This document shows, piece by piece, positions 43,270 through 45,014 of a stretch of DNA of 64,000 bases. The stretch covers positions 1,488,001-1,552,000 of the forward strand of contig NZ_ATXB01000001.1 of assembly GCF_000421465.1 (NCBI RefSeq), in the 5' to 3' direction. The notes under the pieces were generated by a model. The model was given only the letters and a program-made list of their open reading frames with translations, did no database searches and was not told the DNA's origin. Source of the stretch: Methylohalobius crimeensis 10Ki (GTDB taxonomy: Bacteria; Pseudomonadota; Gammaproteobacteria; Methylococcales; Methylothermaceae). A program made the translations under genes and the position numbers. The stretch's first letter is position 1. Each line of letters begins with the position of its first letter.

Positions 43270-43368
43270 CGGATAATGCGTCCTTGACCCTCTCAAGGTC
43301 CGTCGAATTGAGCCAATATAATGAAATGGATCGTTTCCTGCAAGCGTAATGGGGGCGAGCGGGCAAGT

Positions 43369-43382
43369 TTGATCCAGATCAA
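43369..43382 (+). promoter_or_regulatory. Perfect FNR/ANR box
   Basis: TTGATCCAGATCAA fits the FNR consensus TTGAT-N4-ATCAA at every position. Its centre (43375.5) lies 41.5 bp before the start predicted from an extended -10 element TGCTAGCCT (43401-43409), the exact class II activation geometry. It could also act on the minus-strand glycosyltransferase operon 100 bp away. Confidence 0.7.
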
Positions 43383-43415
43383 AATCGACCTTTGCCAAAC
43401 TGCTAGCCTATTCCC

Positions 43416-43507
43416 TAAACCTCCTTAGTTACCGTTGGTTTCGGACATTTCAGCCATTTATCCTCTGGGAAGGGTTTGAGCGGGTGCAATCGCCCCGCTC
43501 TTTTTTT
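43416..43507 (+). ncRNA. Candidate FNR-activated small RNA, about 92 nt
   Basis: No protein gene lies between the FNR-type promoter and a strong intrinsic terminator 92 bases later, so a discrete short transcript is predicted. Near the 5' end it carries CCTCCTTAG, which is complementary to ribosome-binding sequences and would be a natural seed for pairing with mRNA leaders. The 3' hairpin with seven T residues would also suit Hfq binding. The prediction is from promoter, terminator and seed only; I do not recognise a known family. It could instead be the leader of nqrA. Confidence 0.5.
43478..43507 (+). terminator. Strong intrinsic terminator upstream of nqrA
   Basis: The stem GAGCGGG / CCCGCTC (43478-43484 and 43494-43500) is followed by TTTTTTT. 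There is no protein gene upstream on this strand for it to serve, so it ends a short RNA or attenuates an nqr leader. Confidence 0.8.
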
Positions 43508-43566
43508 GCCCGTCTCTCGAAAGCCCGGCCCCGCGTTGTTCGGCCACGAAAATTGTGCTGTAATAA

Positions 43567-45014
<1,448 letters not shown>

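Follow-up and report, generated by a model that had tools for sequence, protein, structure and literature searches.

A predicted FNR-activated small RNA with an anti-Shine-Dalgarno core shared by four or more methanotroph families

The 64,000-nucleotide stretch of the Methylohalobius crimeensis 10Ki genome analyzed here (the window) contains a compact module, made up of an FNR box, a -10 element, a short C/U-rich core and an intrinsic terminator, which lies upstream of nqrA. It is best explained as the gene of an FNR-activated, trans-acting small RNA (sRNA) that would block ribosome sites under oxygen shortage, a reading to which we assign a probability of about 0.8. The module is probably a real and hitherto undescribed oxygen-responsive regulator, present in at least four methanotroph families; confidence is high for the gene itself and moderate for the mechanism.

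The anatomy of the locus was read directly from the sequence (Table 1). A transcription start at 43417 places the center of the box at position -41.5 and gives an RNA of about 91 nt. A preliminary description of this DNA had reported a perfect FNR box 41.5 bp before the predicted start, a strong terminator behind it and no protein gene between the two, and these points were confirmed: the box is kept in the homologues of the genus, the pairing of the terminator is preserved across families, and no conserved open reading frame (ORF) separates them.

Table 1. Features of the sRNA locus, in window coordinates
Feature	Position	Strand	Basis or remark
FNR/ANR box TTGATCCAGATCAA	43369-43382	+	read directly; center 43375.5, class II position
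Extended -10 stretch TGCTAGCCT	43401-43409	+	read directly
-10 element TAGCCT	43404-43409	+	preceded by TGC (extended -10)
Predicted FNR-dependent small RNA, ~91 nt	43417-43507	+	start from box/-10 spacing, end from terminator
CCUCCUU, 5'-end stretch, second possible anti-Shine-Dalgarno	43420-43426	+	conservation in the genus
Genus-specific core extension UUUCAGCCAUUU-AUCCUCU-GGGAAGGG	43449-43474	+	near-invariant in 8 genus genomes
AUCCUCU core, putative anti-Shine-Dalgarno seed	43460-43466	+	alignment A2 and R1 matches
Intrinsic terminator GAGCGGG-TGCAATCGC-CCCGCTC-TTTTTTT, 7-bp outer stem, T7	43478-43507	+	sequence
RNA-to-nqrA spacer with separate conserved promoter-like element	43508-43654	+	TTTTGTGATGTAATAC-like element in relatives
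TAATAA of the nqrA promoter-like element	43561-43566	+	comparison of regions before nqrA

Perfect boxes of this kind are scarce: the one in Table 1 is the only one in the window, and the whole genome (3.5 Mb) holds eight, compared with three for the reversed-pattern control. The others are mostly intragenic, for example, in pqqB, aroC and sdhB, names that were assigned by reading the translations. Just one further perfect TTGATN4ATCAA box looks clearly intergenic; it is located at C1:948680-948693 (L206:1181-1194), in AT-rich surroundings and with no obvious gene under its control. A chance origin of the module is excluded, because it is conserved in eight of the ten genomes of the genus and because box and -10 element keep a fixed spacing at all 36 loci described below.

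The host is a methanotroph, and its congeners are Methylothermaceae bacteria. At the DNA level, strong matches among 100 relatives were confined to the genus; this search, together with a covariance model (R1) built from the RNA alone with the box left out, located the RNA in those eight genomes, in every case before nqrA and with R1 scores of 88-106 bits. All eight copies contain the box, at an identical position, the -10 element, CCTCCTT, the core TCAGCCAnnnATCCTCTGGGAAGGG and the terminator, so that the conservation check proposed in the preliminary description found these elements conserved together. The region conserved in the genus spans 65 nt, and its core extension is near-invariant except for the number of U residues; the box is invariant, while the stretch between the box and the -10 element varies freely. 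Two of the ten genomes lack an intact module. In the small 2.2-Mb genome of G001 (L141), a decayed core remnant, GGCCATTTATCTCTCAGGG, lies some 150-250 bases before nqrA with no FNR box, an apparent loss of the sRNA; in G009 (L139) an ftsH-like frame continues directly into the nqr promoter, and both the ferredoxin gene and the small RNA that G003, a close relative, possesses are missing, owing to either a deletion or a misassembly. Several congeners (L003-L007) also retain a palindrome, GGAAACGCWGCGTTTCC, some 40-70 bases ahead of the FNR box, of which the window has only the half-like GTTTCCTGC near 43334-43342; it could be the terminator of the upstream gene or the site of another regulator.

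Beyond the genus, the presence of a box upstream of R1 matches counts as independent evidence, because R1 was built without it. Among 301 genomes of the order, R1 gave seven best matches outside the genus at E < 0.05, and six of these share ATCCTCT-[GT]G and have a box that precedes ATCCTCT by about 46-100 nt; the seventh (L024) matches through the terminator only. When the genomes were searched for the pattern of a box plus ATCCTCT, the module turned up in 30 of the 32 sampled genomes of genus g12 (family f8), in all six of g4 (f4), in both members of g7 (f7), in single members of g16, g23 and g33 and in two of g40, the genomes being counted by eye on the matched sequences and the terminator confirmed at the retrieved loci; reversed-pattern controls were near zero. 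The spacing was compared at 36 distinct loci that end in a strong terminator and represent four families and at least eight genera. A TANNNT -10 element is present at all 36, starting 21 nt after the box at 27 loci, 22 nt at four and 23 nt at five, and the upstream TG of the extended -10 is not general among them. As the -10 element was absent from every search pattern and yet occurs at a fixed spacing, a class II FNR promoter is strongly supported. Of the eight families seen in the order, four gave no copy of the module, and R1 gave only weak matches, lacking box or core, in 369 genomes of the class outside the order.

In an alignment of 29 sequences (A2), AUCCUCU and the terminator are the only parts common to all members; AUCCUCU formed part of the pattern search, but it is independent in the R1 matches. 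AUCCUCU is conserved across the four families and complementary to ribosome sites, and it is largely unpaired in the predicted fold of the window RNA and partly paired in those of some relatives. CCUCCUU is conserved in the eight homologues of the genus and not beyond it, and in the predicted folds it often pairs, in part, with GGGAAGGG. Both are, judged by their complementarity, anti-Shine-Dalgarno sequences. The proposal that CCTCCTT acts as the seed therefore stands only in part: the motif is present and the genus conserves it, but order-wide the conserved element is ATCCTCT. The surroundings of the core differ between lineages. A GGGA group (f1, f4 and f7) has GGGAWGG after AUCCUCU, with a tiny UCC-UCUG-GGA hairpin possible, and in f8 the AUCCUCU region mostly reads AUCCUCUUGAAAGAU, while the 5' stem AUGUC/GACAU of f8 becomes AUGUU/AACAU in a relative. 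The terminator stem changes its sequence completely between families and preserves its pairing. RNAalifold recovered hardly any consensus pairs from the wide alignment, since terminators that differ in length are misaligned in it.

As for the regulator, the host genome encodes one clear FNR (L105:1486-2199, minus strand; C1:1755785-1756465), with 38% identity over residues 15-242 of E. coli FNR and the cysteines CTNCGFGSAC, i.e., C-x2-C-x5-C, spaced as in E. coli. Its recognition helix reads ATVSR, compared with ETISR in E. coli, where the glutamate contacts the G of TTGAT. The host protein lacks that glutamate even though TTGAT boxes are conserved, and its exact site preference is uncertain because of this replacement. 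Five HTH_Crp domains occur in the genome, which besides FNR has three other clear CRP/FNR-family proteins and one borderline case. FNR and DNR binding sites are alike, and the same small RNA could accordingly be driven by another member of the family, for instance of the NO-sensing DNR/NnrR type, in which case the signal would be NO or nitrite. The ATVSR helix and the three other family proteins keep a NO-sensing relative among the possible controllers, albeit an unlikely one, given the single clear FNR match with its cysteine cluster retained and the conservation of the box over four families, which fits a core regulator.

The position of the RNA before the Na+-NQR genes had been regarded as attractive, and the position itself holds: in f1, and within f4 in g4 and g23, nqrA follows the RNA, and in f7 the two are near each other. 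An action on NQR is less well favored. In f8, G082 and G102 the RNA lies away from nqrA, beside ligA, ftsH-like or cysteine desulfurase genes, and nqrA has its own TTTTGTGATGTAATAC-like promoter element (window 43540-43570; L139-L146), which is conserved between families of the order irrespective of the presence of the sRNA. The nqrA neighborhood thus appears to be old synteny and is no proof of a functional link. The ribosome sites of nqrA-F and fnr are unremarkable for pairing, with a middling match at nqrE in a comparison made without an accessibility term. The same observations weigh against the idea that the module is the 5' leader and attenuator of the nqr operon, in which FNR would start transcription and a regulated terminator would limit NQR to some conditions. 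This reading would account for the placement before nqrA, but it is quite improbable, as the RNA stands apart from nqrA in other lineages, the promoter-like element of nqrA is downstream of the terminator and occurs also in relatives without the RNA, and the terminator has no evident common alternative fold.

The box is symmetrical, and a minus-strand glycosyltransferase gene has its likely ATG about 107 bp downstream of it on that strand; one could suppose that the box serves the glycosyltransferase genes and that the remainder is a chance terminator. The preliminary description had itself named this as the outcome that would overturn its proposal. It has very little in its favor, because the upstream gene varies among the genus copies: in the congeners examined, the homologous site lacks the glycosyltransferase and encodes a 2Fe-2S ferredoxin or a glycolate oxidase-like subunit, and the box, -10 element, core and terminator remain; furthermore, in L005 the upstream gene points the same way as the RNA. 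A small protein gene in place of an RNA gene has practically no likelihood at all. The reverse complement of the core does resemble a ribosome site followed by ATG GCT GAA, but the promoter and terminator face the opposite way, the reverse-strand frames across the RNA break between close relatives, for which reason this reading was rejected, and the ORF check found no plus-strand ORF of at least 60 aa within the RNA. The locus is devoid of a credible protein on either strand.

Returning to the FNR-activated sRNA, the locus would be a stand-alone gene for a trans-acting regulator. At low oxygen, FNR with an intact iron-sulfur cluster would bind the box at -41.5 and activate the adjacent -10 element, and RNA polymerase would halt at the intrinsic terminator, releasing an RNA of about 91 nt. 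AUCCUCU, together with CCUCCUU in the host genus, would then pair with particular mRNAs at their Shine-Dalgarno sequences and block their translation, by which a set of oxygen-phase proteins would be lowered. The sequence shows the anatomy of the gene, its conservation and the presence of an FNR gene in the genome; activation by FNR, expression, repression by base pairing, the targets and any chaperone are inferred, and for the mechanism past promoter and seed the model is other anti-Shine-Dalgarno sRNAs, among them S17 of Bordetella (PMC11722255).

Gene starts reading AGAGGAU-n-AUGGCUGAAA would suit the core of the genus, and the complement of the 26-nt core extension, CCCUUCCCAGAGGAU-AAAUGGCUGAAA, is like a ribosome site followed by AUG-GCU-GAA, a likeness that suggests a specific target in the genus. 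Candidate targets were searched for in the host genome and its relatives with CAGAGGAT-N-ATG. The best match in the host genome was the ribosome site of grxD (L112; C1:1452961), CCAGAGGATAA, with 11 nt complementary to the sRNA core, and in G000 no other gene start matched convincingly over 11 nt. This complementarity is absent upstream of grxD in the congeners, and grxD was dropped as a conserved target since the core match occurs in the host genome only; the complementarity of a methyltransferase in G006 is likewise not conserved. A wider proposal is that FNR exerts most of its oxygen response through translation, by way of an undescribed, order-wide RNA family of Methylococcales methanotrophs that would reduce the translation of many mRNAs with AGAGGAU ribosome sites; very few perfect intergenic FNR boxes occur in the host genome, and we regard the proposal as rather doubtful.

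Among known RNAs, the closest in logic is FnrS of E. coli and its relatives, an FNR-controlled sRNA that represses oxygen-phase genes when oxygen is short. The likeness drawn in the preliminary description holds at this level, both being free-standing sRNA genes under an FNR box and ending in an intrinsic terminator, but it does not extend to sequence: no relation was found, the FnrS family of Rfam has no match in the window and is absent even from the weak-match lists, and the core of the methanotroph RNA is the anti-Shine-Dalgarno AUCCUCU. No Rfam family reached its gathering score in the window, and weak matches (RF02278, L20 leader, sbrA, anti-hemB and others) were rejected as being driven mostly by the terminator and U run. 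NmsRa and NmsRb, the sibling sRNAs of Neisseria (RF02877), have UCUCCU-type motifs aimed at the ribosome sites of metabolic genes; their family scored 16.3 bits against a cutoff of 52. Induction under oxygen shortage would be shared with AniS of Neisseria, an sRNA induced when oxygen is short, and with PaiI of P. aeruginosa, and both are absent from the Rfam matches of the window. PaiI is reported to depend on NarXL (PMC5703892). The best Rfam match was RF02278, the Betaproteobacteria toxic sRNA (bdhR1 of Burkholderia), yet at 18.2 bits against a cutoff of 50 (15.9 in L004 and 13.4 in L070); like S17, it is short and combines a C/U-rich anti-ribosome-site stretch with a terminator behind it. 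S17 represses through ribosome-site pairing, and its description makes no mention of FNR (PMC11722255). A search of open-licence papers on small RNAs, FNR and oxygen in methanotrophs found no description of the RNA, which we rate as a new family among the FNR-controlled sRNAs.

Aerobic methanotrophs live at the limits of oxygen and determine the amount of methane that leaves sediments and water, yet little is known about the way they perceive oxygen shortage and respond to it. The conserved promoter, seed and terminator offer a handle for its study, since the seed predicts which ribosome sites would be blocked. Furthermore, the RNA would provide Rfam with a new family and add an unrelated member to the RNAs under the control of FNR.
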